In this document: one piece after another, positions 4,295 through 58,523 of the stretch
How positions within the stretch are numbered: position 1 is the stretch's first letter
How the letters are laid out: each line of letters begins with the position of its first letter
From: Actinomycetota bacterium
Lineage (GTDB): Bacteria > Actinomycetota > Thermoleophilia > Solirubrobacterales > 70-9
Assembly: GCA_018268415.1 (NCBI GenBank)
Contig: JAFDWO010000160.1
Coordinates: 1 to 64,000 of the forward strand
Length of the DNA: 64,000 nt
Direction: 5' to 3'
The notes under the pieces: generated by a model
The model's input: the letters and a program-made list of their open reading frames with translations, nothing else
Told to the model about the DNA's origin: nothing
The model's database searches: none
Program-made: the position numbers and the translations under genes

Positions 4295-5137
4295 ATGCCG
4301 CATGGGAGAGGATTTGTGACGTTCGGGACGACCAGCGCCTTTACCCTGCTGACGACGCTTTGTTGCTGCGCGGCCCTGGCGGTCCCCGGGGCCGCGGGCG
4401 AGACGGTCCGGCAAGGGAGCTTGCAGGTGTCCTTCGGCGGATCGGTCGCGCCCCAGCGGCTGCCGCGGGCCGGGACGACGCCGGTGGCGGTCACGATCCG
4501 CGGACACGTTCGCGCCCTCACCGAGTCCCCGCCGCCGTCCCTGCGCCGGATCGCGATCGAAGTCAACCGGCTCGGCGTGCTCGAACGGAGGGGCCTCGCC
4601 GCCTGCCCGTTGCGCCGCCTTCGCGCCTCCAGCACCGAGACGGCGCTCGACGGCTGCCGGGCCGCGCTGGTCGGCGAAGGCCGGGTGAGCGGCGTCCTCG
4701 TCCTCCCGGAACAGGTGCCGACCCCGTTCGCCGGGCGCGTCGTCGCCTTCAACGGCACCCTGCCCGGCGGCCGTCCCGGCATCCTCGCCCACCTCTACAC
4801 CCCTCGGCCCGCGCCGCTCACCTTCGTGCTCGGCTTCTCGATCGGCCGCGCCCACGGCACCTTCGGCACCCGCCTCGTCGCCACCGTTCCGGCACGGACG
4901 CGCCGCACCGCCCACATCACCTCCTTCTCGCTGCGCCTGCACCGCACCTACTCGGTCGGCGGCGAGCAGCGCAGCTACCTCAGCGCCGGCTGCCCCGCGC
5001 CCGCGGGCTTCGGCGGCGCCACTTTCCCGTTGGTGCGAGCCGCCTACAGCTTCGTCGGCGAGAAGACCGTCTCCGACACCCTGGTGCGCACCTGCCGGGT
5101 GGGGGGAGCCGGAAACGAAACTCCTAATAACGGCTAA
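4295..5137 (+). CDS. Exported protein of unknown function
   Basis: A 280-residue protein with an N-terminal hydrophobic signal (FTLLTTLCCCAALAVPGAAG), so probably secreted. I do not recognise the family. The body is rich in beta-forming segments and has spaced cysteines (AACPLRRL, DGCRAAL, SAGCPAP, VRTCRV) that could form disulfides. I chose ATG 4295 because a GGGGGAGGG ribosome-binding site sits 6 bp upstream; the frame is open further upstream, but that part overlaps the divergent Rieske gene. It is followed 32 bp later by the exported gene set at 5170-9685 on the same strand and may belong to that unit. Confidence 0.75.
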   Translation: MPHGRGFVTFGTTSAFTLLTTLCCCAALAVPGAAGETVRQGSLQVSFGGSVAPQRLPRAGTTPVAVTIRGHVRALTESPPPSLRRIAIEVNRLGVLERRGLAACPLRRLRASSTETALDGCRAALVGEGRVSGVLVLPEQVPTPFAGRVVAFNGTLPGGRPGILAHLYTPRPAPLTFVLGFSIGRAHGTFGTRLVATVPARTRRTAHITSFSLRLHRTYSVGGEQRSYLSAGCPAPAGFGGATFPLVRAAYSFVGEKTVSDTLVRTCRVGGAGNETPNNG

Positions 5138-5169: not shown

Positions 5170-6492
5170 ATGACGAAAGCTCGCGCCGTACCTGAGCCCC
5201 TCCCTGCCCGCCTGATCGTCGGCCTCCTCGCCGCAGTCGCGGCCCTTTGTGCGCCGGCGTTCCCGGCGCTCGCCGGGGCCCGCCCACATTTCAAGCTGCC
5301 GAAGCCCGCGGTCCTGACCTTCAAAGTTGCGCAGGTCGGCAAGCCGGACAACTCGTCGGTGGCGATCGTCCCCTTCACCTCGGCGCTCTACGCCAATTGT
5401 GGCGACGCGCCGAAGGAAACGAAGGTGGGCAAGACCAACCTTCCCGACCCCTGCCAGGAAGTCGGGAGCGTCCCCTACGAATACGGGATCGGCGAGGTCG
5501 AAGTGACGGTCGAACAGTACGTCGCCTTCCTCAACACGGTCGATCCGTTCGGTCGTAACCAGCAGGGGCTCTACTCGGAAACCGAGAGCGGTGCGGCCTG
5601 GCCGCGCTTCGGCCAGATCGACTACTCGGCGATCGCCCGGGCGGGCAGGCACTACACCGCCGCCGCGCCGGAATGGAACGACAAGCCCTATGGCTTCGCC
5701 AACTTCCTCCGCGCCGCGCGCTTCGACAACGCGGTCGCCAACGGCAAGGTGCTGTCGAAGGAAGCGTCGACCATCGGCTCCGGCAACGGGGAATTCAGGT
5801 ACGTCACCTACAAGGTGCGGCTCTCCCGGAAGACCGGGACCGGCATGTACGACATGCACAAGCGCGCCCCGGTGCGGACCGAGGAATCGGGCTTCGTGAT
5901 CCCGAGCCAGAACGAGTGGATCAAGGCCGCCTACTACGACCGGACCGGCGGCGGCACCTACTCGTACTGGTGGTACCCGACCAACGTCGGCAGCCCGTTC
6001 TTCGAAGGCGGCGCGCCGGAACAGGTGACGCTCGACCCGAGCACCGGCGACGTCACCAACGCCCACGGCCGGCCGCTGGCCAACTTTCACGCCGGCTCGT
6101 CGACGCCCGCGCCGAGCTGGTGCCCGTCGAACCAGACGCAGGAAGCGTGCGAAACCGTGAACCCCTTCAACCTGCCGCCGAAGGCCTACAAGAAGGCCTA
6201 CCAGGGAAGCCTCAGCACGGTCGGCCAAGCGGCGACCTTCGGGCCGTGGGGCACGCTCGAACAGGGCGGCAACGCGGTCGAGTGGACCGACACGATCACC
6301 GCACCCCCGTTCGGGGCGAAGGGCCATCGGGTGTGGCGGCGCCTGCACGGGGGAGTCCCCAACGCACCGCTCTACCAGCTGTGGCTTTCGGCGGTGGGCC
6401 TGCAACCACAGGACAACACCTTCTACACCGCCACCTACCCGTGGCTCGGCTTCCGGATCGGCGTGGTCGGTGAAGGGTCCGGCGGCAAGTGA
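5170..6492 (+). CDS. Exported SUMF1/formylglycine-generating-enzyme-like protein lacking the catalytic cysteines
   Basis: A 440-residue protein with a signal peptide (about residues 13-36). Fold hallmarks of the FGE-sulfatase (SUMF1) family are clear: YEYGIGEVEVTVEQYVAFLN near the start, EWIKAAYYDRTGGG in the middle, GGNAVEWTD, and the terminal LGFRI. In copper-dependent FGEs the C-terminal third carries two active-site cysteines (GGSxLCHxSYC-type); here the corresponding RRLHGGVPNAPLYQLW has none. The only mature cysteines are in YANCGDAP, DPCQEV, SWCPSN and EACETV, which suits structural disulfides. It overlaps the propeller gene by 4 bases (GTGA). FGE activity is therefore doubtful; a binding or scaffold role is possible. 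Confidence 0.8.
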   Translation: MTKARAVPEPLPARLIVGLLAAVAALCAPAFPALAGARPHFKLPKPAVLTFKVAQVGKPDNSSVAIVPFTSALYANCGDAPKETKVGKTNLPDPCQEVGSVPYEYGIGEVEVTVEQYVAFLNTVDPFGRNQQGLYSETESGAAWPRFGQIDYSAIARAGRHYTAAAPEWNDKPYGFANFLRAARFDNAVANGKVLSKEASTIGSGNGEFRYVTYKVRLSRKTGTGMYDMHKRAPVRTEESGFVIPSQNEWIKAAYYDRTGGGTYSYWWYPTNVGSPFFEGGAPEQVTLDPSTGDVTNAHGRPLANFHAGSSTPAPSWCPSNQTQEACETVNPFNLPPKAYKKAYQGSLSTVGQAATFGPWGTLEQGGNAVEWTDTITAPPFGAKGHRVWRRLHGGVPNAPLYQLWLSAVGLQPQDNTFYTATYPWLGFRIGVVGEGSGGK

Positions 6493-8033
6493 AGAATCTC
6501 GTCTCGATGCGTCGGCGTCGGCTCTCCGTCCTCGTACTCGGCCTGGTCGCGATCCTGGTGTTCGCCCTCGCGGCGGGCGCCGGAGCGGCGCCGTCCGCCG
6601 GCGGCAAAAAGGGCGGCTCCGAACACGTGCAACCGCCCGTGGAAACCAGCGCCGGGAGCCTCGAACAGCTGCCTGGGCGGCTCGGCTGCCTCGGCGAAGG
6701 CAAGGCAGCGGTGAAGCTCTGCGGCCGGGCGCGGGCGCTCACGGAACCGGGGCCGGGCGTCGGCTCGCGGGCGATCGCGATCAGCCCTGACGGGCGCAAC
6801 GTCTACGTCGCCTCCTCCGGCAGCGACGCGATCGCCGTCTTCGACCGCAGCCGGGCCACCGGCGCGCTCACCCAGCCGCCAGGCAAGGCGGCGTGCGTCG
6901 CCGCGGCGCTCGGCAGGGCGAAAGGGACGCGCGGCTGCGGCGTCGCGATCGGCCTCGACGGACCGAACTCGGTCGCGGTCAGCCCTGATGGGCGCAACGT
7001 CTACGCGACCGCGCGCGGCAGCTCCGCGGTCCTCACCTTCCTCCGCAACCCCCGCACCGGGCAGCTGCGCCAGCTGCCGCCGTCGGCCTCCGGCTGCATC
7101 GCCGGAGCGGCGGTCCCGGGGTGCACCGCGGGGCGGGCGCTGAGCTGGCCGGACGTGGTCGTCGTCTCCCCCGACGGGCGCAACGTCTACGTCGGCGACT
7201 TCGCCGGCTCCGGCGTCATCTCGTTCTCCCGGGCGGGCAAGGCGGGGGCGCTCACCCAGCTCTCCGGCAGCGCCGGGTGCATCACCGAAGCGGGGGCCGA
7301 AGGTTGCGCCAAGGGCGCGCAGATGAACCACGTCGAGGGTCTGGCGATCGCCCCGAACGGGTCCGCGGTCTACGCCGCGGCGGCCTTCTCCAGTGCTGTC
7401 GACTTCCTCGCTCGTGACTCTGCCACCGGCGCGCTCAGCCAGAGCGGCTGCGTCACCGCCTCGAAGGTCACCGGGTGCGCGCTCGGCTACGAGTTCGGCG
7501 GCGTCAACGCGCTCGCGTTCGCGCCCGCCGGAGGTGACGTCTACGCAACCTCGCTGACCAGCAACAGCCTCACCACCTTCCAGAAGCTCCTCGGCGGTGT
7601 CGGCATCAGCCAGCCGCCCGGTCCCGAACGGCAGGTGGAAAAGGAAAACGGGCCGGGCAAGGAAACCGTCCCGACGCCGGAAGGCACGCCGAGCCCCGAT
7701 GGCTGCACCGTCTTCCTGCGCTCGCCGGGCTGCGGGTTCGGCGTCGCGATGCAGGCGCCGGAGGGGGTCGACGTCTCCCCCGACGGGACCAGCGTCTACG
7801 TCGCCGCCTTCGGCACCGGCGCGATCGACGTCTTCGACCGCGATGCCGAATCGGGCGTCGTCACCCAGAAGTCGGGCCCGCGCGGCTGCGTGGCGGTGCC
7901 CAAGGTCCACGGCTGCACGCCGGGGCGGGCGCTCGGCGGAGCCGCCTCACTGGTCGTCAGCCCCGATGGCAGGAACGTCTACTCGACCGCGCAATTCAGC
8001 AACGCGGTCGACATCTTCAGGAGGATCGAATGA
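6489..8033 (+). CDS. Exported seven-bladed beta-propeller (YVTN/lactonase-like) with paired cysteines
   Basis: A 514-residue protein with an N-terminal signal (LVLGLVAILVFALAAGAGAA). I count seven blade motifs of the SPDGRNVYV type: three near-identical copies, two degenerate ones (APNGSAVYA, APAGGDVYA), then SPDGTSVYV and SPDGRNVYS. Each blade is accompanied by a C-x(7-14)-C pair such as GCIAGAAVPGC or GCVTASKVTGC, seven pairs in all, suggesting one disulfide per blade. The GTG start overlaps the upstream stop (GTGA) and its stop overlaps the sulfatase start (ATGA), so the three products are probably made in fixed ratio. No enzymatic residues are evident; ligand binding or scaffolding is likely. 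Confidence 0.85.
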   Translation: MKNLVSMRRRRLSVLVLGLVAILVFALAAGAGAAPSAGGKKGGSEHVQPPVETSAGSLEQLPGRLGCLGEGKAAVKLCGRARALTEPGPGVGSRAIAISPDGRNVYVASSGSDAIAVFDRSRATGALTQPPGKAACVAAALGRAKGTRGCGVAIGLDGPNSVAVSPDGRNVYATARGSSAVLTFLRNPRTGQLRQLPPSASGCIAGAAVPGCTAGRALSWPDVVVVSPDGRNVYVGDFAGSGVISFSRAGKAGALTQLSGSAGCITEAGAEGCAKGAQMNHVEGLAIAPNGSAVYAAAAFSSAVDFLARDSATGALSQSGCVTASKVTGCALGYEFGGVNALAFAPAGGDVYATSLTSNSLTTFQKLLGGVGISQPPGPERQVEKENGPGKETVPTPEGTPSPDGCTVFLRSPGCGFGVAMQAPEGVDVSPDGTSVYVAAFGTGAIDVFDRDAESGVVTQKSGPRGCVAVPKVHGCTPGRALGGAASLVVSPDGRNVYSTAQFSNAVDIFRRIE

Positions 8034-24486: not shown

Positions 24487-24537
24487 GGGAATGCTCCCGC
24501 CGTACGTGGTCTGAGCCAAAAAGTGTACGGGGCCGAG

Positions 24538-24611
<74 letters not shown>

Positions 24612-40395: not shown

Positions 40396-41454
40396 CTATT
40401 CGAAGACGACGGTGTAGGTCGCTTCGTTGTTTTGGGTGAACTGCTCGCCCGGCACCGGTTCGACCTGAACTTCCAGTTTCGTTTCGCCTTCCGGCGCCGG
40501 GGTCAGGGGGACGACCGCCGTTTCTTCGGCCGCTGCTTCCAGAGCGGCGATTTCCTGCGTCGTTTCTTTGCCGTTCGCGATCACCACCACGGTGACGCCG
40601 TTCTCGGTCGATTCACCCTGGTTCTGGACGGTCACTTCGACTTCCGGCGTGCCTTCGGTGGTCACCGAGGTGGTCGATTCCGCCGATAGTTCGGTGCCGT
40701 TCACGCTCGTCCCGACCAGGCCGAGGCCGTGGAGCCCGGGACCCGGTTCGCCGCCGCTCGAGCCGCTCACCGTGCCCAGCGCTTTCGCGACTTCGCCTTC
40801 TTCCAGCCACTTGGTCCCGTCGGGCACGAAGGTGCTTTTCGGCACGTCGTGGCCTTCGATGCCTTCGTCGGAGAGCTTGTTGTTGATTTCCGGCCGCACC
40901 ACCGATTCGTAGATCACGTCGGAGGCGAGCAGGGTCTGCATCTGTTTGGTGATCGCCGTGGTCGCCTGCGCCGCGCCGGCTTCGCCCAGTGCGGTCGGCA
41001 TCTTTTCGGCGATCTTTTCCATCGCCGCCGCACGCAACGTGTACACGAGTTCGAGCGAGTTCTGCGCGCTGCCCAGTGCCCCTGGCGCGCTCAGCCCTTC
41101 GACCCGCGTCTTCAGGTTGGTCATCGCGCTGCGTTCGGCCTCCACTTTCCCGGTGAATTCGGTCACCGAGAGGGTGCCGGGGTCTTCGAGCAGGCCGAAG
41201 AACCGTTTACTGCTCTGTTCGGTCTCGACCAAGATCTGCCGGACGCTGCGCGAGTAGTCGGAGAGCGCACCCCGCGCCTGCGCGTCGAGGCACCCCTTGA
41301 CGCCGAGCACGATCACGATCAGGGCGATCAGCGCCCCGCCCAGGGCAAGCAGGCGCCGCAACATGATTTGCTGGCGTTCGGGGCGGCGGCCGGGCCGACG
41401 CGATCGTCGGCTCGCGCCGCCTGAAGTCGAGTACTCCAAGTGGCGGCTCTCCAA
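40396..41454 (-). CDS. Membrane-anchored exported protein with C-terminal CARDB-like domain
   Basis: About 350 residues: a basic cytoplasmic tail (SRRSRRPGRRPERQQ), one membrane helix (LALGGALIALIVIVLGVKG), then an exported helical region and a C-terminal CARDB/beta-sandwich-like domain (PEVEVTVQNQGESTENGVTV ... FTQNNEATYTVVFE). Starts possible are TTG 41454, TTG 41439 (GGAG nine bases upstream) or ATG 41364; the longest is given. Exported-part glutamates are 34 GAA to 4 GAG, against the GAG-rich neighbour pheA. It is divergent from the kinase at 41596, with whose signalling it may be linked. Function unknown. Confidence 0.7.
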   Translation of the reverse strand: MESRHLEYSTSGGASRRSRRPGRRPERQQIMLRRLLALGGALIALIVIVLGVKGCLDAQARGALSDYSRSVRQILVETEQSSKRFFGLLEDPGTLSVTEFTGKVEAERSAMTNLKTRVEGLSAPGALGSAQNSLELVYTLRAAAMEKIAEKMPTALGEAGAAQATTAITKQMQTLLASDVIYESVVRPEINNKLSDEGIEGHDVPKSTFVPDGTKWLEEGEVAKALGTVSGSSGGEPGPGLHGLGLVGTSVNGTELSAESTTSVTTEGTPEVEVTVQNQGESTENGVTVVVIANGKETTQEIAALEAAAEETAVVPLTPAPEGETKLEVQVEPVPGEQFTQNNEATYTVVFE

Positions 41455-43894: not shown

Positions 43895-45088
43895 ATGACG
43901 TTACGGATCACCGACCAGGCCTACGCGACCGACACCGGTCGCCAGCGCAGCGCCAACGAGGACTCGGTCTTCGTCCGCGCGCCGCTCTTCGTCATCGCCG
44001 ATGGGATGGGCGGGGCGCGGGCGGGGGAGGTCGCCTCGAAGACCGTGGTCGAGGCCTTCGACCGACCGCTCCCGGGGGCGCCGCCGGAGCGGGTGCTGCG
44101 GGAGACGATCGAAGGTGCCAACCGGACCGTCTACGCGCTCGCCCGCGAGGATTCGAACCTCTCGGGGATGGGAACGACGACGACCGCGGCGATCCTCGAC
44201 GAGGGTGCCGACGAGGTGGCGATCGGCCACGTCGGCGACAGCCGCGCCTACCGGCTGCGGCGGGGCAAGCTGGAGCGGCTCACCCGCGACCACTCGCTGG
44301 TCGAGGAGATGCGGCGCAAGGGGCAGCTGACCGAGGCGCAGGCCGAGGATCACCCGCAACGCTCGATCATCACCCGCTCGGTCGGGCCGGAACCGGAGGT
44401 CGAAGTCGACCTACAGACGGTGCCGGCGCAGGCGGGCGACGTCTTCCTGCTCTGTTCCGACGGCCTGACCACGATGCTCGACGACGACCACATCGAGCGG
44501 CTGCTGACCCGCGCGACCTCGATGCCCAACGCGGTCCGCGCCCTGGTCGACGAAGCCAACCGGGCGGGCGGGCGCGACAACATCAGCGTGATCGCCTTCA
44601 AGGTCGTCGACGCGGCCGAACCGGCGCTGGACGCGGAGGGCGCGACGCTGATCGGCACGAGTGCCGCGGACGCCGGGCTGACCGCGACCGAGGTGCGCCG
44701 CCGCGCCGCCGCCGACGCGGCCCGCCAACGGCGCGAGGACGCCGCCGCGGCCCGGCCCGGCAGGCGCCGGCGGATCGTGAAACGGGTGGCGGGGATCGTC
44801 GCCCTGCTCGTGGTGATCGGCGCCCTCGTCTTCGGTGCCGGCTACGGCCTGCGCCACATCTGGTTCCTCGGCACCGACAACGCCGGCCGCGTCGCCCTCT
44901 ATCGCGGCGTCCCCTACGAACTGCCCTTCGGGATCAAGCTGTACAGCGAACGCTATTCGGCGCCGGTGCAGACCGAAGCGCTGCCGGAAAAACGCAAGAA
45001 CGCGGTGACCGGCCACGGGCTGCGCTCGCACGCCGGCGCCCAGGAACTGCTGGAAGAAATCGAACGCGGCCAGGGGGTCAGGGAATGA
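43895..45088 (+). CDS. pstP: PP2C-family Ser/Thr phosphatase (PstP type)
   Basis: A 397-residue phosphatase. Metal-binding motifs are NEDSVFV, VIADGMGGARAGEVAS, IGHVGDSRAYRLRRGKL, LLCSDGLTTML and GGRDNISVIAFK. A basic juxtamembrane run (RQRREDAAAARPGRRRRIVK) leads to one helix (GIVALLVVIGALVFGAGYGL) and an exported tail of about 75 residues. It is the off-switch of the local kinases. The phosphatase part has 18 GAG and 5 GAA, the exported tail 0 GAG and 9 GAA. The stop overlaps the rodA start (ATGA). Confidence 0.93.
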   Translation: MTLRITDQAYATDTGRQRSANEDSVFVRAPLFVIADGMGGARAGEVASKTVVEAFDRPLPGAPPERVLRETIEGANRTVYALAREDSNLSGMGTTTTAAILDEGADEVAIGHVGDSRAYRLRRGKLERLTRDHSLVEEMRRKGQLTEAQAEDHPQRSIITRSVGPEPEVEVDLQTVPAQAGDVFLLCSDGLTTMLDDDHIERLLTRATSMPNAVRALVDEANRAGGRDNISVIAFKVVDAAEPALDAEGATLIGTSAADAGLTATEVRRRAAADAARQRREDAAAARPGRRRRIVKRVAGIVALLVVIGALVFGAGYGLRHIWFLGTDNAGRVALYRGVPYELPFGIKLYSERYSAPVQTEALPEKRKNAVTGHGLRSHAGAQELLEEIERGQGVRE

Positions 45089-46440: not shown

Positions 46441-47894
46441 ACCGCCAGATCATCAAGCTGTTCGGCTTCATCGTCGTCCTCTTCGCGATCCTGGTCGGCT
46501 TCACGTCCTGGTGGTCGGTCTTCGACGCCAAGGCGCTGAAGGAACAGGAAACGAACAAGCGGCCGCTCTTTGAGCAACAACAGATCCCCCGCGGCCGGAT
46601 TCTCGCCGCCGACGGCTCGGTGATCGCCAAGTCGGTGCCGAAAGGGAAGGGGACCGGCAGACGGTACGTCCGCCATTACCCGCAAGGGAAGCTCTTCGGC
46701 CACCCGATCGGCTACAGCTTCATGGAATACGGCCAGACCGAGTTCGAGCAGTACCACAACGCCGAACTGACCGGGGAAGAATCGGAATTCGGCACGATCC
46801 TCGACCAGCTGACCGGGCAGAAGCAGGAAGGCGAACAGGTAGTCACCAGCCTCGACCCGAAGGCGCAGGAAGTGGCGATGGGGGACCTCGAAGCGGCGGG
46901 CTACGGTGCCGTGGTGGCGATCGAACCGAGCACCGGAGCGGTCAAGGTGCTGGCCACGAACCCCTCCTTCAATCCGAACGCGATCCCCACCAAGCTCGAA
47001 CAATGGAACCTGGAGAAGGTCAGGGCGCCGCTCTACAGCCGTGCGACCCAGAGCCAGTTCCCGCCGGGCTCGACCTTCAAGGTCGTGACCGCGGCCGCGG
47101 GCCTCGAATCGGGCGTGATCACCCCGGAAACGACCATCAACGCGCCGGGCTCGATCATCGACGAAGGCCACGAACTGGCCAACGACTACAACCAGTCCTG
47201 GGGCTCGATCTCGCTCGACACGGCGCTGACCAACTCGGTCAACACCTGGTTTGCCCAGCTCGGACAGAAGGTCGGCCAGGACAAGCTCTTCTCGATGATG
47301 GAAAAGTTCGGCTTCGGCGCGACCCCGCCGATCGACCTGCCGGAAAGCGAAGTCAACCCGAGCGGTCTCTTTGAAGGGAACGAACTGTTGAGCCGCCGCG
47401 ACCCGGTCGACCTCGGCCGGGTCGCGATCGGCCAGGAGCGCCTCCTGGTGACGCCCCTGCAGAACGCGATGGTCGCGGCCGCGGTGGCAAACCACGGCAA
47501 GCTGATGAAGCCGCAGATCTGGAAGCGGGTGGTGAACGTCGACGGCAGCGTCACCAAGCGGATGAAGCCGACCGTCTACAGCGAACCGCTCTCGGCGAAG
47601 ACGGCGGAAGAGCTGGGCATCGCGATGGAAGGCGTGGTCGACGAAGGGACCGGGACCAACGCGGCGATCTCCGGCGTATCGGTGGCCGGGAAGACCGGCA
47701 CCGCGGAAACGCCGAACAACAAGGAATGCGGCGGCGGTGAAGCGGAGAACCAGGCCTGGTTCATCGGGTTCGCTCCGGCCGATCACCCGAAGATCGCGAT
47801 CGCGGCGACGGTGTCCTGCACCGAACGGTTCGGTGGCGACGTCGCCGCACCGATCTTCCGCGATGTCGCCGAAGCGATCCTGGCGGGCGAATAG
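46437..47894 (+). CDS. pbpA: Class B penicillin-binding protein (PbpA-like transpeptidase)
   Basis: A 485-residue bifurcated enzyme: one N-terminal anchor helix (FGFIVVLFAILVGFTSW), a dimerisation domain with the IPRGRILAADG entry, and a transpeptidase domain with STFK (Ser about 212, Lys about 215), SVN in LTNSVNTWFAQLG and KTG in VAGKTGTAE. It cross-links the strands made by RodA. GTG start overlaps rodA. Exported glutamates are 32 GAA to 7 GAG. The 52-bp gap before the PASTA kinase has GAGGGGAGAGGGG, a strong ribosome-binding region. Confidence 0.94.
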   Translation: MNRQIIKLFGFIVVLFAILVGFTSWWSVFDAKALKEQETNKRPLFEQQQIPRGRILAADGSVIAKSVPKGKGTGRRYVRHYPQGKLFGHPIGYSFMEYGQTEFEQYHNAELTGEESEFGTILDQLTGQKQEGEQVVTSLDPKAQEVAMGDLEAAGYGAVVAIEPSTGAVKVLATNPSFNPNAIPTKLEQWNLEKVRAPLYSRATQSQFPPGSTFKVVTAAAGLESGVITPETTINAPGSIIDEGHELANDYNQSWGSISLDTALTNSVNTWFAQLGQKVGQDKLFSMMEKFGFGATPPIDLPESEVNPSGLFEGNELLSRRDPVDLGRVAIGQERLLVTPLQNAMVAAAVANHGKLMKPQIWKRVVNVDGSVTKRMKPTVYSEPLSAKTAEELGIAMEGVVDEGTGTNAAISGVSVAGKTGTAETPNNKECGGGEAENQAWFIGFAPADHPKIAIAATVSCTERFGGDVAAPIFRDVAEAILAGE

Positions 47895-47946: not shown

Positions 47947-49848
47947 GTGGCTGAGGTCGAGGTCGGCTCGGTCGTCGACGGGCGCTACCAGGTGCTGGCG
48001 AAGCTGGGCGGCGGTGGCATGGCGGACGTCTGGCTCGCCGAGGACACCCACCTGCAACGGCGGATCGCATTGAAGGTCCTGCACCGGCGCTTCGCCCAGG
48101 ACCGCGAGTTCGTGATGCGCTTCCGGCGCGAGGCCGAGGCGGCCGCCGGGCTGCAGCACCCGAACGTCGTCGGCGTCTTCGACCGCGGTGAATGGGAGGG
48201 CACGTACTACATCGCCATGCAGTACGTGGAAGGCCCGACGCTGAAGCAGCTGATCGATTCCGGGATCACCGTCGAGCAGGCGGTTGCGGTGATCCGCCAG
48301 GTCCTGCAGGCGGCCGGGTACGCGCACCGCCAGGGGATCGTCCACCGCGATCTGAAGCCGCAGAACGTGATCGTCGACCCGGAGGGCAAGGCGGTGGTCA
48401 CCGACTTCGGCATCGCCCGGGCGGGAGTCTCCGAGATCACCCAGACCGGCTCGGTGATGGGGACGCCGCACTACCTCTCGCCCGAGCAGGCGCAGGGTTT
48501 CGACGTCACCGCCGTCTCCGACCTCTACTCGATCGGCGTGATGCTCTACGAGGCGCTCACCGGCCGGGTCCCGTTCGAGGGCGAATCGGCGGTTGCGGTG
48601 GCGATGAAACAGGTCTCGCAGATGCCGCAACGGCCGAGCTCGATCCAGCCGCGGGTCAGCCCGGCTCTGGACGCGGTGGTGATGCGGGCGCTGGAGAAGG
48701 ACCCCGGGCAGCGGTTCCAGAGCGCCGACGCGTTCATCGCCGCGCTCGACCAGGCGATGCGCGAACCTGGTGGCGCCGGCCGCGGGACCACCTCCTTCGC
48801 CGCGCTGCCGCCGGTCGTCGCGACGCCCGAGGAGGAGGGGGAGGACCCCGAGGCCAAGCGCAAGCGACGGCGCAACATGTGGATCATCGCCGCCCTGGTG
48901 GCGATCATCGTCGGTGCGCTGATCGGGATCTTCGCCAGCCGCTCCAACCCCACGACCCCGGTGCCGAGCGTCGAAGGCCGCAGCCTTCAACGGGCCGAAG
49001 AAATCCTCGAACAGCGCGGCTTCACGGTGAACCAGCCGCCCCAGCAGGTGCACCGCATGGTCGAAGCGGGGACCGTGCTCGAGCAGGACCCCTCGCCGGC
49101 GCCGCCGGGGCGAGAAGCGGAAGAAAACTGCTCCTTCCTCACCCTCTTCTGCTCGAAGCCGGCGGTCACGCTGACGATCAGCGTCGGCCCCGGCGAAGGC
49201 ACGGTGCCGCGGGTGAACGGCCTGAGTCGTGCCGAAGCGACGAAGAAGCTGGAAGCCGCGGAATTCGAAGTGGCCACGGAAAACGTCAACTCGGCGACCG
49301 TCGAAGAAGGCGACGTGGTCAAGTCCGAACCGTCCGCCGGCACGGTTGCCACCCACGGCTCGACCGTCACGATCTTCGTCTCCACCGGCCCGAAGCTGGT
49401 CAAGGTGCCGGTGCTGGTCGACAAGCAGCGCCGCCTCGCGGTGCAGGAAATCCGCGCCCGCGGGCTCACCCCGGAAGTCGGCGAAGAGGAAAGCAGCCAG
49501 CCGATCGGCCGGGTGCTGCGCCAGTCGCCGAGCGCGGGCCAGGAACTGGAACCGGGCGCGACCGTGCAGATCGTCGTCTCCTCCGGGCGCGAAACGAAGC
49601 GGATGCCCGGTGTGGTCGGCCTCGAACGCCGCGAAGCGGTGGAAGAAGTGCGAGCCGCCGGGTTGACCCCGGTGGTCGAAGAAGAAGAAACGCGAAACGA
49701 AGCGAAGATCGGCGTGGTGCTGCGGCAGTCGCCGCACGGCGGCACCCAGCTGACGCCGGGGTCCGAAGTGACGCTGATCGTCGGCAAGCGCGCGGCGCCG
49801 ACGCCCGTGGAAGAACCAGAAGAACCGGAAGAAGGGGAAGTCCCGTGA
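47947..49848 (+). CDS. pknB: PASTA-domain Ser/Thr protein kinase (PknB type)
   Basis: Membrane kinase of 633 residues. The kinase domain (about 1-275) has LGGGGMADVWLAED, ALKVLHRR, VHRDLKPQNV, TDFGIARAG and GTPHYLSPEQAQG. A basic stretch and one helix (MWIIAALVAIIVGALIGIFAS) lead to four PASTA repeats that sense muropeptides or lipid II. The first PASTA contains an insertion with two cysteines (NCSFLTLFCS). Glutamate codons change at the membrane: 19 GAG/4 GAA inside, 2 GAG/41 GAA outside. GTG start; the stop overlaps ddl. Confidence 0.96.
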   Translation: MAEVEVGSVVDGRYQVLAKLGGGGMADVWLAEDTHLQRRIALKVLHRRFAQDREFVMRFRREAEAAAGLQHPNVVGVFDRGEWEGTYYIAMQYVEGPTLKQLIDSGITVEQAVAVIRQVLQAAGYAHRQGIVHRDLKPQNVIVDPEGKAVVTDFGIARAGVSEITQTGSVMGTPHYLSPEQAQGFDVTAVSDLYSIGVMLYEALTGRVPFEGESAVAVAMKQVSQMPQRPSSIQPRVSPALDAVVMRALEKDPGQRFQSADAFIAALDQAMREPGGAGRGTTSFAALPPVVATPEEEGEDPEAKRKRRRNMWIIAALVAIIVGALIGIFASRSNPTTPVPSVEGRSLQRAEEILEQRGFTVNQPPQQVHRMVEAGTVLEQDPSPAPPGREAEENCSFLTLFCSKPAVTLTISVGPGEGTVPRVNGLSRAEATKKLEAAEFEVATENVNSATVEEGDVVKSEPSAGTVATHGSTVTIFVSTGPKLVKVPVLVDKQRRLAVQEIRARGLTPEVGEEESSQPIGRVLRQSPSAGQELEPGATVQIVVSSGRETKRMPGVVGLERREAVEEVRAAGLTPVVEEEETRNEAKIGVVLRQSPHGGTQLTPGSEVTLIVGKRAAPTPVEEPEEPEEGEVP

Positions 49849-50810
49849 GGATCGTGGTGTTGAGCGGTGGTCGCTCCTCCGAGCACGAGGTCTCGCTCGG
49901 GTCGGCCGCCGCGGTGATGAAAGGGTTGGAAGAAGCCGGCCACCAGGTGGTCGAGGTACGGATCGGCCGTGATGGGGGATGGAGTGCCGGCGGTGACGCG
50001 GTGGAGCTCACCCCCGGCGCCGGGCTGCTCGACGCCGAGGTCGTCTTCCCCGTCCTCCACGGGCCCTTCGGCGAGGACGGCAGCATGCAGGGCCTGCTGG
50101 AGATGCTCGACGTCCCTTACGTCGGCTCCGACGTCCTGGCCTCGGCGACCTGCATGGACAAGCTGACCCTGAAGCGGCTGCTGGCCGGGCAGGGGATCCC
50201 TCAGGTCGACTTCGTCGAGGTCGGCGAGGAGGGCTGGCGGGAGCGCTGCGCCGAGCTGGGGTCGCCGCTCTGGGTCAAGCCCTCGCGGATGGGCTCCAGC
50301 GTCGGCATCACCCGGATCGAGGACCTCGCCGCGCTCGACGGGGCGGTGGAGACGGCACTGCGGCACGACCCGCGGGTGATCGTCGAGGCCTCCGCCCACG
50401 GGCGCGAGATCGAGTGCTCGGTGCTCGGCAACGAGGACCCGCGGACCTCGATGCCGGGCGAGATCCTCGCCCACGCCGAGTGGTACGACTACGAGGCGAA
50501 GTACGCCGAGGGCGGCATGGACCTGGCGGTGCCGGCGCCGATCTCGGAGATCGAGACGGCGCGGGTGCGCGAGCTCGCCGCCGAGGTCTTCCGCCTGGCC
50601 GGCTGCTCTGGCCTGGCCCGTTGCGACTTCTTCGTCGAGCCCGACGGCTCGGTGCTCGTCAACGAGCTCAACACGATGCCCGGCTTCACCGAGACGAGCG
50701 TCTACGCGAAGCTGCTCGAGGCCGACGGCCTCGCCTACCCTGATCTCTGCGATCGCCTTGTCGCCCTGGCGATCGAGCGCTACGAGCGCGTCCGCTCACA
50801 CGAGTTCTGA
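49845..50810 (+). CDS. ddlA: D-alanine--D-alanine ligase (second copy, canonical)
   Basis: ATP-grasp ligase of 321 residues with textbook blocks: VLSGGRSSEHEVSLGSAAAV, VFPVLHGPFGEDGSMQGLLE, PLWVKPSRMGSSVGITRI, REIECSVLGN and VNELNTMPGFTETSVYAKL. GTG overlaps the PASTA kinase stop, so wall sensing and precursor supply are translationally linked. In contrast to the exported half of the kinase just upstream, its glutamates are 33 GAG to 2 GAA. It converges with the kinase at 50812, with one base between stops. The better-conserved substrate loop suggests this is the housekeeping ligase. Confidence 0.95.
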   Translation: MRIVVLSGGRSSEHEVSLGSAAAVMKGLEEAGHQVVEVRIGRDGGWSAGGDAVELTPGAGLLDAEVVFPVLHGPFGEDGSMQGLLEMLDVPYVGSDVLASATCMDKLTLKRLLAGQGIPQVDFVEVGEEGWRERCAELGSPLWVKPSRMGSSVGITRIEDLAALDGAVETALRHDPRVIVEASAHGREIECSVLGNEDPRTSMPGEILAHAEWYDYEAKYAEGGMDLAVPAPISEIETARVRELAAEVFRLAGCSGLARCDFFVEPDGSVLVNELNTMPGFTETSVYAKLLEADGLAYPDLCDRLVALAIERYERVRSHEF

Positions 50811-50811
50811 G

Positions 50812-52344
50812 CTATTCGAACAGCTTGATGTCCGAGATTTCGACCTGGTAGCGACCTTCCTGGTCGCTCGCGGGCGAAGCCTTGGTGAACCAGATCAGGA
50901 AGTATTTGGCGGCCTGGCCGAGGTGGAGCTGCACTTCTTCTTCCTTGGCGGCGCCGGTGACCTCGCCGACCTGTTCTCCCCATTCTTCGATTTCGCCGGG
51001 TGGGCCCGCGGCGGCGGCGAAGATCTGGGCGTCCCAGCCGGGGGTGGGGGAGCGGATGATCATCTTTTCCGGCGTCGCGTCGGCCTTCGCCGTGACGTAG
51101 ATGCCGACGCCGGGGTCCGGACCGGTCTTCGTGCCTTCGAAGGTTTCGGAGTCGTAGTGCTCGGTCGACCAGGCGGTTTCTTCGCTGCCGTCGATCACGT
51201 TGCGCGCCAGCGCGTCGTTCTCGTGTTCGTCGCCCTCCGGGTCGTAGGCGGTGGCCGCTTCGAGCGCCACCGGGGACCCCGTGGAAGGCTTCGGTTCCTT
51301 GTTTTCGTTCTTGCCGACGATCGGCGTGTTGCCGCTGCCGATCAGCTGGGTCGCGAGGAGGACGGCCGCGGCGATCAGCACCACCGCCGCGATCGCCGCC
51401 CACGACCAGCGCGCCCGGGAGGACAGCTTGCGTTTGGCCGGCGGCACCGCCTCCAGCACGGTGGTCGCCTCGCCGGTGGTCGAGCCCGCTCGCGCCGCCT
51501 CGACCTCGAGCGCGGTGGAGAGGTCGTCGATCATCTCGCCGATCTCGGCATAACGCTGCGTGGGGTCCTTGGCCGTCGCCCGCTCGACCACCAACGCCGT
51601 GGCCGCCGAGATTTCGGGCCGGTCGCCCTGCACGTCGGGCAGCTCTTCGTTGACGTGTTTCATCGCCACCCCGACCTGGCTGTCGGCCTGGAAGGGGACG
51701 TGGCCGGTCAGCATCTCGAAGAGGACGACGCCGAGCGAGTAGATGTCGGAGCGCTGGTCGGCGCCGCGGCCCATCGCCTGCTCGGGGGCGACGTAATCGG
51801 TGGTGCCGAGCACCCGCCCGGTCGCGGTCAGCCCGTCCTTTTCGAGCTGGCGGGAGATGCCGAAGTCGGTCAGCTTGGCGCGTCCCTCGCCATCGATCAG
51901 GACGTTTTGCGGCTTGATGTCCCGGTGGACCATCCGGCGCGCGTGGGCGACGGTCAGCCCGCGGGCGATCTCGATCGCGTAGGCGAGGGCCTCCTGCACG
52001 TCGAGCGCCCCGACCCGGTTGATCCGCGCCTTCAGCGTCTCCCCTTCGACGTATTCGAAGACGATGTAGGGGTAGCCGCCGTCCTCGCCCGCATCGATCA
52101 CGGCAACCACGTTGGGGTGGGAGATCTTGGCCACCGCGCGGGCCTCCTGGCGGAAGCGCTCCAGCTGGTCGGCCTGCTCGGACATCTCCCGGTGCATGAC
52201 CTTAACCGCCACCGGCCGGTCGAGGGTCGTATCGCGGGCCAGGTAGACCGTCGACATGCCGCCCGAGCCGAGTTTCGCCTCCAGCCGATAGCGGCCGGAG
52301 AGCACGGTGCCGATCATCTTCGAGCTGGTGGGGCGGTCGGGCAT
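50812..52344 (-). CDS. Ser/Thr protein kinase with exported discoidin (F5/8 type C)-like domain
   Basis: A 510-residue kinase. The kinase domain has LGSGGMSTVYLARD, AVKVMHRE, VHRDIKPQNVLID, DFGISRQ and GTTDYVAPEQAMG; then one helix (WAAIAAVVLIAAAVLLATQLI) and an exported domain of about 150 residues with ARNVIDGSEETAWSTEHY and the terminal YQVEISDIKLFE, the pattern of F5/8 type C sugar/lipid-binding domains. So it probably senses a surface glycan and not muropeptides. Glutamates are 20 GAG/5 GAA inside and 4 GAG/19 GAA outside. ATG 52344. It converges on the pknB-ddl cluster. Confidence 0.92.
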   Translation of the reverse strand: MPDRPTSSKMIGTVLSGRYRLEAKLGSGGMSTVYLARDTTLDRPVAVKVMHREMSEQADQLERFRQEARAVAKISHPNVVAVIDAGEDGGYPYIVFEYVEGETLKARINRVGALDVQEALAYAIEIARGLTVAHARRMVHRDIKPQNVLIDGEGRAKLTDFGISRQLEKDGLTATGRVLGTTDYVAPEQAMGRGADQRSDIYSLGVVLFEMLTGHVPFQADSQVGVAMKHVNEELPDVQGDRPEISAATALVVERATAKDPTQRYAEIGEMIDDLSTALEVEAARAGSTTGEATTVLEAVPPAKRKLSSRARWSWAAIAAVVLIAAAVLLATQLIGSGNTPIVGKNENKEPKPSTGSPVALEAATAYDPEGDEHENDALARNVIDGSEETAWSTEHYDSETFEGTKTGPDPGVGIYVTAKADATPEKMIIRSPTPGWDAQIFAAAAGPPGEIEEWGEQVGEVTGAAKEEEVQLHLGQAAKYFLIWFTKASPASDQEGRYQVEISDIKLFE

Positions 52345-57725: not shown

Positions 57726-58523
57726 TTGCTGCACACTGTCGAAAGAATCGGCTCCTTCGCGGGCCTCGCGTCCTTCTTGGGGCTGGCGGTCTTCGCCCTG
57801 CTCCTGTTCGCCCACGGGCGGGACATCCGCCGGCTCCGCGATTGGGCGGGCTCGGCGCCCGAGCGGGAAGCCGAGCGGATGGAACAGACGCAGAACATCG
57901 CCGCCCAGCGCGCCGAAGAGCTGCGCGAACTGGAGGAATCGCGGACCGCGGAGCACGAGGCGGTAGAGCAGCGTGAAGTGCGACGGCAGCGCCGCGAGGA
58001 AGGCCTGCCGGAACAGACGCGCGGGGAGCGCATCCGCGAACGGTTCTCCGGCTTCGGCGAAACGCTGTCGCGGCCGGCCCTGCTGGTGGTGCTGTTCCTG
58101 GTCTTCGTCCTCGTCGCCGGCGGCGTCGCCTACGCGGTGCTGAACAACGGCGGCAGCGAAGAAGTCAAGGGCGGGGGCCACAGCAACAAGAACGGCAAGC
58201 AGGCCGCGTCGACGAAGAAGGTGAAGCCCGACGAAATCGAAGTGGCGGTCCTGAACGGCACCGAAGCGACGGGCCTGGCCGCGACCTGGGGCGACAAACT
58301 CGAAGGCAAGGGCTTCGAAGTCGGAGCCATCACCAACACCACGTCGACCTTCGAAAACTCGGTGGTGATGTTCGAAAACGGGGCCGCGCCGGAAGCCAAG
58401 ATGGTCGCCAAACAGCTGCAGATCCACAAAGTCCAGCCGATGACCGCCGAAGTCTCCGGGGTGTCGAACGGAGCGAAAGTCTCGGTCGTGGTCGGCGAGG
58501 ACAATGTCCCGGCGGAAAGTTGA
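57726..58523 (+). CDS. Membrane protein with exported LytR_C-type domain
   Basis: A 265-residue protein with a first helix (LASFLGLAVFALLLFAHG), a charged helical linker of about 80 residues rich in Glu/Arg, a second helix (ALLVVLFLVFVLVAGGVAYA) and an exported LytR_C-like domain (DEIEVAVLNGTEATGLAATW ... SVVVGEDNVP). LytR_C modules accompany LCP enzymes that attach polymers to the wall, but the LCP catalytic domain is absent. TTG start at 57726. Linker glutamates are mixed (10 GAA/9 GAG), the exported part 12 GAA/1 GAG. Its end overlaps the next gene by 20 bp. Confidence 0.8.
   Translation: MLHTVERIGSFAGLASFLGLAVFALLLFAHGRDIRRLRDWAGSAPEREAERMEQTQNIAAQRAEELRELEESRTAEHEAVEQREVRRQRREEGLPEQTRGERIRERFSGFGETLSRPALLVVLFLVFVLVAGGVAYAVLNNGGSEEVKGGGHSNKNGKQAASTKKVKPDEIEVAVLNGTEATGLAATWGDKLEGKGFEVGAITNTTSTFENSVVMFENGAAPEAKMVAKQLQIHKVQPMTAEVSGVSNGAKVSVVVGEDNVPAES

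Follow-up and report, generated by a model that had tools for sequence, protein, structure and literature searches.

Glutamate codon choice follows the side of the membrane in a genus of Solirubrobacterales with an unusual tRNA(UUC)

Can the choice between two synonymous codons depend on the side of the membrane on which the encoded residue comes to lie? The question is raised by a PASTA kinase gene (positions 47947-49848) in a 64,000-nucleotide stretch (hereinafter the window) from an Actinomycetota bacterium (Thermoleophilia; Solirubrobacterales; 70-9; GenBank assembly GCA_018268415.1, contig JAFDWO010000160.1, positions 1 to 64,000). Glutamate is encoded in this gene by 4 GAA and 19 GAG codons N-terminal to the membrane helix and by 41 GAA and 2 GAG codons C-terminal to it; in the same exported half Lys is AAG at 10 of 10 sites and Gln is CAG at 13 of 14. 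An acidic run just inside the membrane, PEEEGEDPEA, has GAG at every Glu, and the first Glu outside is GAA, which places the switch at the membrane and not at the edge of a conserved domain. The next gene, ddl, which starts at 49845 and shares a GTGA overlap with the kinase gene, has 2 GAA and 33 GAG. Seven exported parts in the window together have 160 GAA and 21 GAG (41/2, 19/4, 9/0, 13/3, 12/1, 34/4, and 32/7), and three cytoplasmic parts plus ddl have 16 GAA and 90 GAG. Every count reported in an initial annotation made from the sequence alone was reproduced exactly on recounting. Misfits in the window, under a simple topology script, include the predicted inner part of a LytR_C protein (10 GAA/9 GAG), 4316-5134 (5/5), and a ParB-like protein to which the script assigns a false helix (1/23 in the part scored as outside).

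The sorting of Glu codons by location is genuine, being neither a matter of chance nor local to the window. Sixty stretches of the source genome were sampled (1.15 Mb of 4.74 Mb, about a quarter), in which our own codon-model script called 981 genes and our own simple script predicted membrane helices from hydropathy and the positive-inside rule. When only proteins with a single N-terminal helix, of mean hydropathy at least 2.0 and with Lys/Arg ahead of it, are taken as exported (the strict rule), GAA makes up 1052/1355 Glu codons in 64 exported proteins versus 2141/14114 in 574 proteins with no helix, and a looser rule gives 1393/2161 for the exported set. The link to export drawn in the initial annotation thus holds across the genome. 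The GAA fraction of individual genes separates 52 exported from 554 helix-less genes with at least 8 Glu each at an area under the receiver operating characteristic curve (AUC) of 0.975, and GAA accounts for at least half of the Glu codons in 54 of the 60 strictly defined exported proteins that contain 5 Glu or more. By eye, many of the exceptions look like errors of the topology script: most of those scored as exported despite low GAA have Rossmann-like folds, and the GAA-rich ones scored as cytosolic include several binding proteins and twin-arginine translocation (Tat)-like proteins with a missed signal. A coiled-coil-looking exported protein has 39 GAA and 9 GAG, which disfavors secondary structure as the cause.

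Among the amino acids tested, this sorting by location is limited to Glu. In a logistic model adjusted for neighboring bases and for the GC content of the gene's third codon positions (GC3), Glu has an odds ratio for location of 19.6, as against 0.84 for Lys, 0.72 for Gln, 0.94 for Asp, and 0.43 for Asn; the per-gene AUC for the latter four lies between 0.45 and 0.55. The direct Lys control (200/971 in strictly exported versus 776/4102 in helix-less proteins) gives p=0.24, and no other two-fold or four-fold codon family in the genome sample shows a comparable shift. The earlier statement that the switch is no general drift toward AT is therefore borne out, with Lys and Gln lacking any shift equal to that of Glu. 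The same data bear on a further possible cause: local GC, neighbor context, or the avoidance within genes of Shine-Dalgarno-like GGAG/GAGG, the last of which the initial annotation had offered. The exported GAA fraction does rise from 0.72 at sites without a flanking G to 0.87 with G on both sides (the cytosolic value being about 0.15), as such an avoidance would have it. However, the 0.72 that stays without flanking G and the adjusted odds ratio refute context or GC as the main cause, and other codons do not shift; we give this explanation almost no weight except, at most, as a small modifier.

How finely the switch follows topology was read from N-anchored and polytopic proteins. In 111 N-anchored proteins (looser rule) GAA is found at 3/34 Glu in the tail ahead of the helix, at 10/25 in the first five codons past it and at 22/29 in codons 5-10. 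In a polytopic set of 86 proteins with a clear charge pattern, taken from the source genome and from the genus member G009, the inner side past an outward-to-inward helix has a GAA fraction of 0.20 in codons 0-6 and of 0.15 in codons 35-70 (range 0.15-0.22); the outer side past an inward-to-outward helix has 0.48-0.64, with 0.40 over the six codons that precede the next helix. In these two genomes, internal loops shorter than 20 residues already differ (GAA 39/77 in outer versus 6/49 in inner loops, p=9 × 10–6), and among 30 proteins with short segments on both sides the outer fraction exceeds the inner in 25, falls below it in 4, and equals it in 1. The switch thus tracks, with no lag and down to single loops, the side on which each residue ends up.

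The ribosome tunnel holds about 30-40 residues; since loops shorter than this already differ, the state of the ribosome, signal recognition particle (SRP), or translocon is unlikely to be the cause, and the simplest alternative is some property that belongs to the residue itself. An export-coupled effect, in which GAA would alter elongation speed during handover to or passage through the translocon, agrees with the tie of the bias to export; yet the switch shows no delay on either side of a helix, the polytopic proteins retain GAG in their inner loops, and Tat-like proteins are biased too. Tat proteins are exported folded; four Tat-like proteins picked by eye have GAA at 29/46 Glu (p=2 × 10–13), and the full set of seven matches to a Tat regular expression with no more than one helix, of which one is a Rossmann-like false hit, has 45/75. 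The translation-rate reading of the initial annotation is accordingly not supported, and we regard export-coupled translation as improbable.

The phylogenetic range of the trait was read from the PASTA kinase, which was found in 41 of 41 genomes and whose loci were read from 30 of these, with named loci added and four loci lacking a usable frame dropped (G032, G029, G038, and SKTG). All 12 congeneric kinases read show the strong trait, with 416 GAA/55 GAG in the exported parts (GAA fraction 0.68-0.95 in each) and 48/241 in the kinase parts. The exported part in the sister genus (G019) has 5/19, and other relatives read in the family and order range from 0 to 6/10 (G018); the kinase of CRAIB_MAG25 is intermediate, with 19/13 exported and 8/13 in the kinase part. 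Larger samples agree: GAA is at 328/491 exported versus 356/2411 cytosolic Glu in the genus member G009, at 24/152 versus 146/2161 in the sister genus, and at 3/207 versus 92/2883 in the outgroup G012, and 22-kb samples give 72/83 versus 22/152 in SZAS-10 (G006) and 39/77 versus 16/143 in CRAIB_MAG25. Being strong in the genus, intermediate in CRAIB_MAG25, weak in the sister genus, and low elsewhere in the order, the trait is centered on the clade and graded. Within the genus, then, Glu residues outside the membrane are for the most part encoded by GAA and those inside by GAG.

Tested outside the clade, the bias did not prove to be a general property of exported bacterial proteins, there being no difference between exported and cytosolic parts in other Actinomycetota (5 exported proteins) or in Streptomycetales/Nocardiopsis loci (2), with the Nocardiopsis kinase having 4/38 in its exported and 1/16 in its kinase part. 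Two single kinase genes, from PWTE (13/32 exported and 1/17 in the kinase part; GAA 13/45 versus 1/18, p=0.05) and Jeotgalibacillus (49/15 and 12/9; GAA 49/64 versus 12/21, p=0.10), may reflect a slight general tendency.

The clade also stands out in the tRNA predicted to read GAA. All 49 tRNA matches in the source genome were typed, 47 of them by ARAGORN with the odd one described below read by eye, and the remaining two being a degenerate Lys(TTT)-like gene (typed by eye) and a Leu(TAA). An ordinary tRNA-Glu(CUC), for GAG, is present; the sole gene with a TTC anticodon among the 49 is a 96-nt tRNA outside the window (G000:C40:51643-51738; RF00005 score 64.5 bits), whose stems resemble those of tRNA-Arg(ACG), whose D-loop contains an additional 7-bp hairpin, and whose anticodon was read from a stem alignment with tRNA-Arg(ACG). 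Like an ordinary tRNA-Glu(UUC), this odd tRNA has the anticodon UUC with A37 and would read GAA; it differs in its Arg-like stems, 5-nt variable loop, D-loop hairpin, and a length greater by about 22 nt. ARAGORN left it untyped in the source genome and in four relatives with an identical gene, named the copies of other congeners Pro and that of the sister genus Thr, and once read its 3′ part as tRNA-Glu(TTC). Ten of 15 full-length genes were aligned, nine of them distinct (of the five left over, four match the first exactly and one is an additional copy in G064). In all nine distinct sequences 28 of 28 pairs are standard, with changes on both sides at seven pairs (three in the inserted hairpin, one in the anticodon stem, and three in the T-stem), which points to a functional tRNA whose cloverleaf is kept by selection and not to a remnant. 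It is identical in five species, the kinases of the other four being 86 to 91% like that of the window over the matched parts.

The odd tRNA is found in 11 of 12 members of the genus, in three of three of the sister genus, and in none of 35 other genomes of the family (E 1e–15). The ordinary tRNA-Glu(UUC) was typed in the relatives G026, G029, and G034 and matched in further relatives; as a query it found no match in the genus save a 35-base piece in G004 (E 0.001) and none in G019, though some relatives outside the clade went unmatched as well. A tRNA pattern search, which misses the odd tRNA of the source genome on account of its T-arm, hits an odd-like partial in G006 (C82). We consider the ordinary gene firmly to be lacking from the assembly of the source genome (94% complete), with good grounds to think it lacking from G009 (listed as 100% complete, with the odd gene as sole match), and only provisionally so for the remaining genus members. 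As far as gene content can tell, then, the decoding tRNA for GAA has changed in this clade. The initial annotation had named a modification of tRNA-Glu among several possible causes; its pointer to the tRNA-Glu genes was right, the difference found being a different tRNA gene and not a modification.

Would such a tRNA be charged with Glu? The determinants of tRNA-Glu given in the passages of PMC9976931 used here are U34 U35 C36 A37, U11-A24, U13-G22:A46, and the lack of residue 47. By eye, the tRNA-Glu(CUC) of the source genome fits the body determinants (U11-A24, U13-G22:A46, no residue 47), and the odd tRNA does not, having C11-G24, C13-G22, and a 5-nt variable loop; it does have all four anticodon-loop determinants of that list, U34 being one that needs a thiol modification. 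Nor does it have the tRNA-Arg determinants A20 and C35, with U at 35 and position 20 falling at the inserted hairpin. In glutamyl-tRNA synthetase (GluRS) no clade-diagnostic column was found under the rule applied. The 3′ half of the odd tRNA also occurs as partial copies at G000:C40:57624-57655 and G002:C6:268932-268972 and on G003:C208, G008:C176, G011:C170, G010:C48, G010:C106, and G019:C113, in two genomes 6-17 kb away from the gene on the same contig; they may be traces of elements integrating into the tRNA gene. The degenerate tRNA-Lys(TTT)-like gene (L068:10640-10712; G000:C149; 38.6 bits) has an abnormal 3′ half.

What GAA means was assessed by a Codetta-like profile likelihood over aligned outgroup residues. 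Glu is the best reading at 404 cytosolic sites, with Gln 73.6 nats behind, and at 262 exported sites, with Gln 42.5 nats behind; on 57 weighted columns Glu is best by 5.1 nats, with F, Y, and W depleted. Between close species, 86 pairs in the exported PASTA part have GAG on one side, and the partner is GAA in 0.384 and GAG in 0.209 of them. The Glu total of exported proteins (looser rule) is 6.2%, against 6.2 and 5.7% in two outgroups, if GAA is counted as Glu. Together, the likelihood, the Glu totals, and the GAG/GAA exchange argue against a reassignment of GAA to any other canonical residue; as judged by alignment, the codon still reads as Glu. Reassignment to Arg, Asp, Gln, or Lys might be suspected from the Arg-like body of the tRNA and from low exported Asp and Arg; but the likelihood favors Glu over all four in cytosol and exported parts alike, and the exported Glu content comes near that of the outgroups only with GAA as Glu. 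Alignment rules this possibility out, and we accord it a negligible probability. The exported fractions themselves (looser rule) are 4.4 and 5.0% for Asp in G000 and G009 versus 7.9 and 5.6% in G012 and G019, and 5.4 and 6.1% versus 8.2 and 8.5%, in the same order, for Arg.

GAA columns are nonetheless less Glu-specific than GAG columns (E fraction 0.171 versus 0.356 exported and 0.369 versus 0.495 cytosolic). In a cleaned set of exported Glu, which was chosen for high GAA and whose homologs include paralogs, sites with a conservation of at least 0.6 have GAA at 36/64 and less conserved ones at 168/207 (p=10–4). An early figure of 14/16 GAG at conserved exported Glu was an artifact, 6 of the 14 coming from the misassigned proteins own_291 and G009_99. 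Three figures hint at a cost of GAA inside the cell: the GAA fraction of GltX is 0.02 versus 0.18 for AAA; the cytosolic GAA and AAA fractions are 0.15 and 0.19 in the source genome versus 0.03 and 0.02, and 0.07 and 0.05, in two outgroups; and the Glu of [LIVMF]3-DEP motifs is GAG in 22/22, at least one of the 22 not being an ABC ATPase. The GAA or GAG state is also kept by column between diverged congeners, mixed pairs reaching 0.32 of the expected number in one exported part and 0.59 in another, with Asp, His, Tyr, and Gln at 0.9-1.0 in the genus alignments of the PASTA kinase and GltX. This is weaker support, because the AAA/AAG state of Lys is similarly kept in cytosolic proteins (0.44 of expectation in GltX and 0.50 in the kinase), perhaps through neighbor context.

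Given a switch that follows the final side at loop resolution, in one amino acid and strongly in one clade, with an abnormal decoder for the same codon, we are led to the product of decoding and not to its timing. We tentatively favor, at somewhat less than even confidence, the explanation that the odd tRNA makes GAA-coded Glu inequivalent to GAG-coded Glu, so that selection sorts the codon by location. The odd tRNA would have replaced the ordinary tRNA-Glu(UUC) and would deliver Glu of a different quality, whether because decoding is less faithful, because a second residue is inserted at a low level, or because the residue itself is altered; selection would then keep GAA low inside, and GAA would be favored or tolerated at exported, mostly variable sites. 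Several observations weigh against this. The sister genus has the odd tRNA in three of three genomes with only a weak bias, so the tRNA alone is insufficient. All four anticodon-loop Glu determinants are present, so ordinary charging by GluRS is possible. Avoidance at the most conserved exported Glu is weak and uneven, with GAA at 18/26 where conservation is at least 0.9 (p=0.19 versus the least conserved) and at 18/38 between 0.6 and 0.9; in PbpA from 12 species one invariant Glu is GAG in 12/12 and another, in KTGTAE, is GAA in 12/12, and GAA at such an invariant exported Glu means that any departure from plain Glu is mild. At conserved cytosolic Glu, GAA is at 10/151, compared with AAA at 2/61 Lys and CAA at 0/39 Gln, an avoidance no stronger than that of the latter two codons. 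Nor does the model by itself explain the rise of exported GAA far above the mutational baseline.

Some of these observations lend weight to a rival in which GAA and GAG both yield identical Glu, the odd tRNA is a coincidental neutral replacement, and selection acts on the codon by an unknown location-dependent route. The profile likelihood for Glu, the exchange of GAG with GAA at exported PASTA sites between close species, the little-biased sister genus with its odd tRNA, and the weak avoidance at conserved exported Glu all suit it. It leaves as coincidence, however, that the effect is confined to the codon with the abnormal decoder and is strong only within the clade having that decoder, and we know of no codon-level process that separates outer from inner loops of fewer than 20 codons. 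We deem it only slightly less likely than the favored explanation. A stronger version of the favored explanation, that GAA and GAG are no longer synonyms in the clade and that the replaced tRNA makes GAA yield something different, either a residue resembling Glu or a stable blend of Glu with another residue, seems to us less likely again.

Less probable by a wide step is that the odd tRNA carries a non-canonical amino acid resembling Glu, which would be put to use outside and mostly kept away from functional Glu positions. It would account for the missing tRNA-Glu body determinants and for the lower Glu specificity of GAA columns, and Codetta, according to the portions of PMC8629427 drawn on here, calls such codons nonspecific or as a similarly used amino acid. 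Yet GAA makes up 1.2% of residues in proteins with no helix and occurs at invariant exported Glu, and no clade-wide extra synthetase appeared in searches confined to two Pfam families of synthetases (PF00749 has one match each in 11 of 12 genus members and none in G007). A divergent paralog of arginyl-tRNA synthetase (ArgRS; L063:14257-16017; G000:C1:54257-56017, minus strand) occurs in 9 of 12 genus members and in none of 38 other genomes of the family, the figure for the sister genus being 0 of 3. Its cluster includes a PabA-PabB fusion and, by eye, chorismate-mutase-like, P450, and monooxygenase-like genes, possibly a natural-product pathway using a synthetase-like enzyme. We do not favor it as the charging enzyme for the odd tRNA: it was not found in the sister genus or in three genus members, and with neighbors of p-aminophenylalanine type (labels partly by eye) an aromatic product would misfit the Glu-like columns.

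Among known systems, the CTG-clade yeasts (Candida), as portrayed in the sections of PMC8645108 and PMC1991585 consulted, come closest: CUG is read there by a different tRNA after the original was lost, and codon use was reshaped, so that both cases involve a sense codon with a replaced decoder. Dual charging is established in the yeasts, unlike here, where GAA is Glu by alignment and sorted by membrane side. The bacterial reassignments reported with Codetta (AGG to Met; CGA/CGG), with clade-specific codon use and a changed tRNA, change the amino acid, whereas GAA in this genus stays Glu by profile likelihood; the whole word GAA does not occur in the main text of that paper (PMC8629427). Non-canonical tRNAs such as selenocysteine tRNA (tRNA-Sec) likewise have a D-arm departing from the cloverleaf norm; the odd tRNA differs in having an ordinary 7-bp acceptor and 5-bp T-stem with an added D-loop stem-loop, a form not found in the passages of PMC7609411 consulted. 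Codon choice is also linked to export in the non-optimal codons of signal peptides and the codon bias of secretomes, in the excerpts of PMC3729583 considered; here, by contrast, the tail ahead of the helix is normal, and the mature exported part is altered, in Glu only.

Table 1. Features of the window with their Glu codon counts (GAA/GAG).
Feature	Position	Strand	Pfam match or remark	GAA/GAG
PASTA kinase, cytoplasmic kinase part	47947..48876	+	Pkinase	4/19
PASTA kinase, membrane helix	48877..48936	+	site of codon switch	
PASTA kinase, exported part	48937..49848	+	PASTA x4	41/2
ddl, cytoplasmic	49845..50810	+	D-Ala-D-Ala ligase	2/33
PbpA, exported part	46506..47891	+	Transpeptidase, PBP_dimer_2	32/7
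PP2C phosphatase (PstP-like), exported tail	44843..45085	+	cytoplasmic part 5/18	9/0
Second kinase, exported tail	50815..51339	-	kinase part 5/20	19/4
CARDB-like exported protein	40399..41295	-		34/4
ABC-2 permease, large outer loop	15229..15882	+	next inner loop 0/4	13/3
LytR_C protein, exported part	58143..58520	+	script-predicted inner segment 10/9	12/1
Exported protein	5272..6489	+	no Pfam match	16/5
Exported beta-propeller-like protein	6579..8030	+		14/3

The window further contains a tRNA-Ile(GAT) gene (24537-24611, minus strand), and G006 has two close copies of pbpA (C82:42373-43827 and C94:77983-79452), 82% and 81% like that of the window.

Among the top results of a literature search of open-licence papers, in itself weak evidence of absence, none describes a pair of codons divided according to membrane topology, and to our knowledge there is no precedent for a synonymous pair that predicts the side of the membrane at an AUC of 0.975. 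In the source genome the GAA fraction alone offers a practical tool that flags exported proteins and, by eye, missed signal peptides. These observations suggest that GAA and GAG are not truly equivalent in this genus of uncultured soil-type bacteria. Either two codons for Glu differ in effect in a living bacterium, or the final location of a residue is visible to selection among synonymous codons, by a route not yet described. If the replaced tRNA does give a distinct product, the exported and cytosolic proteomes would use slightly different amino-acid alphabets, and a single codon would suffice to read membrane topology.

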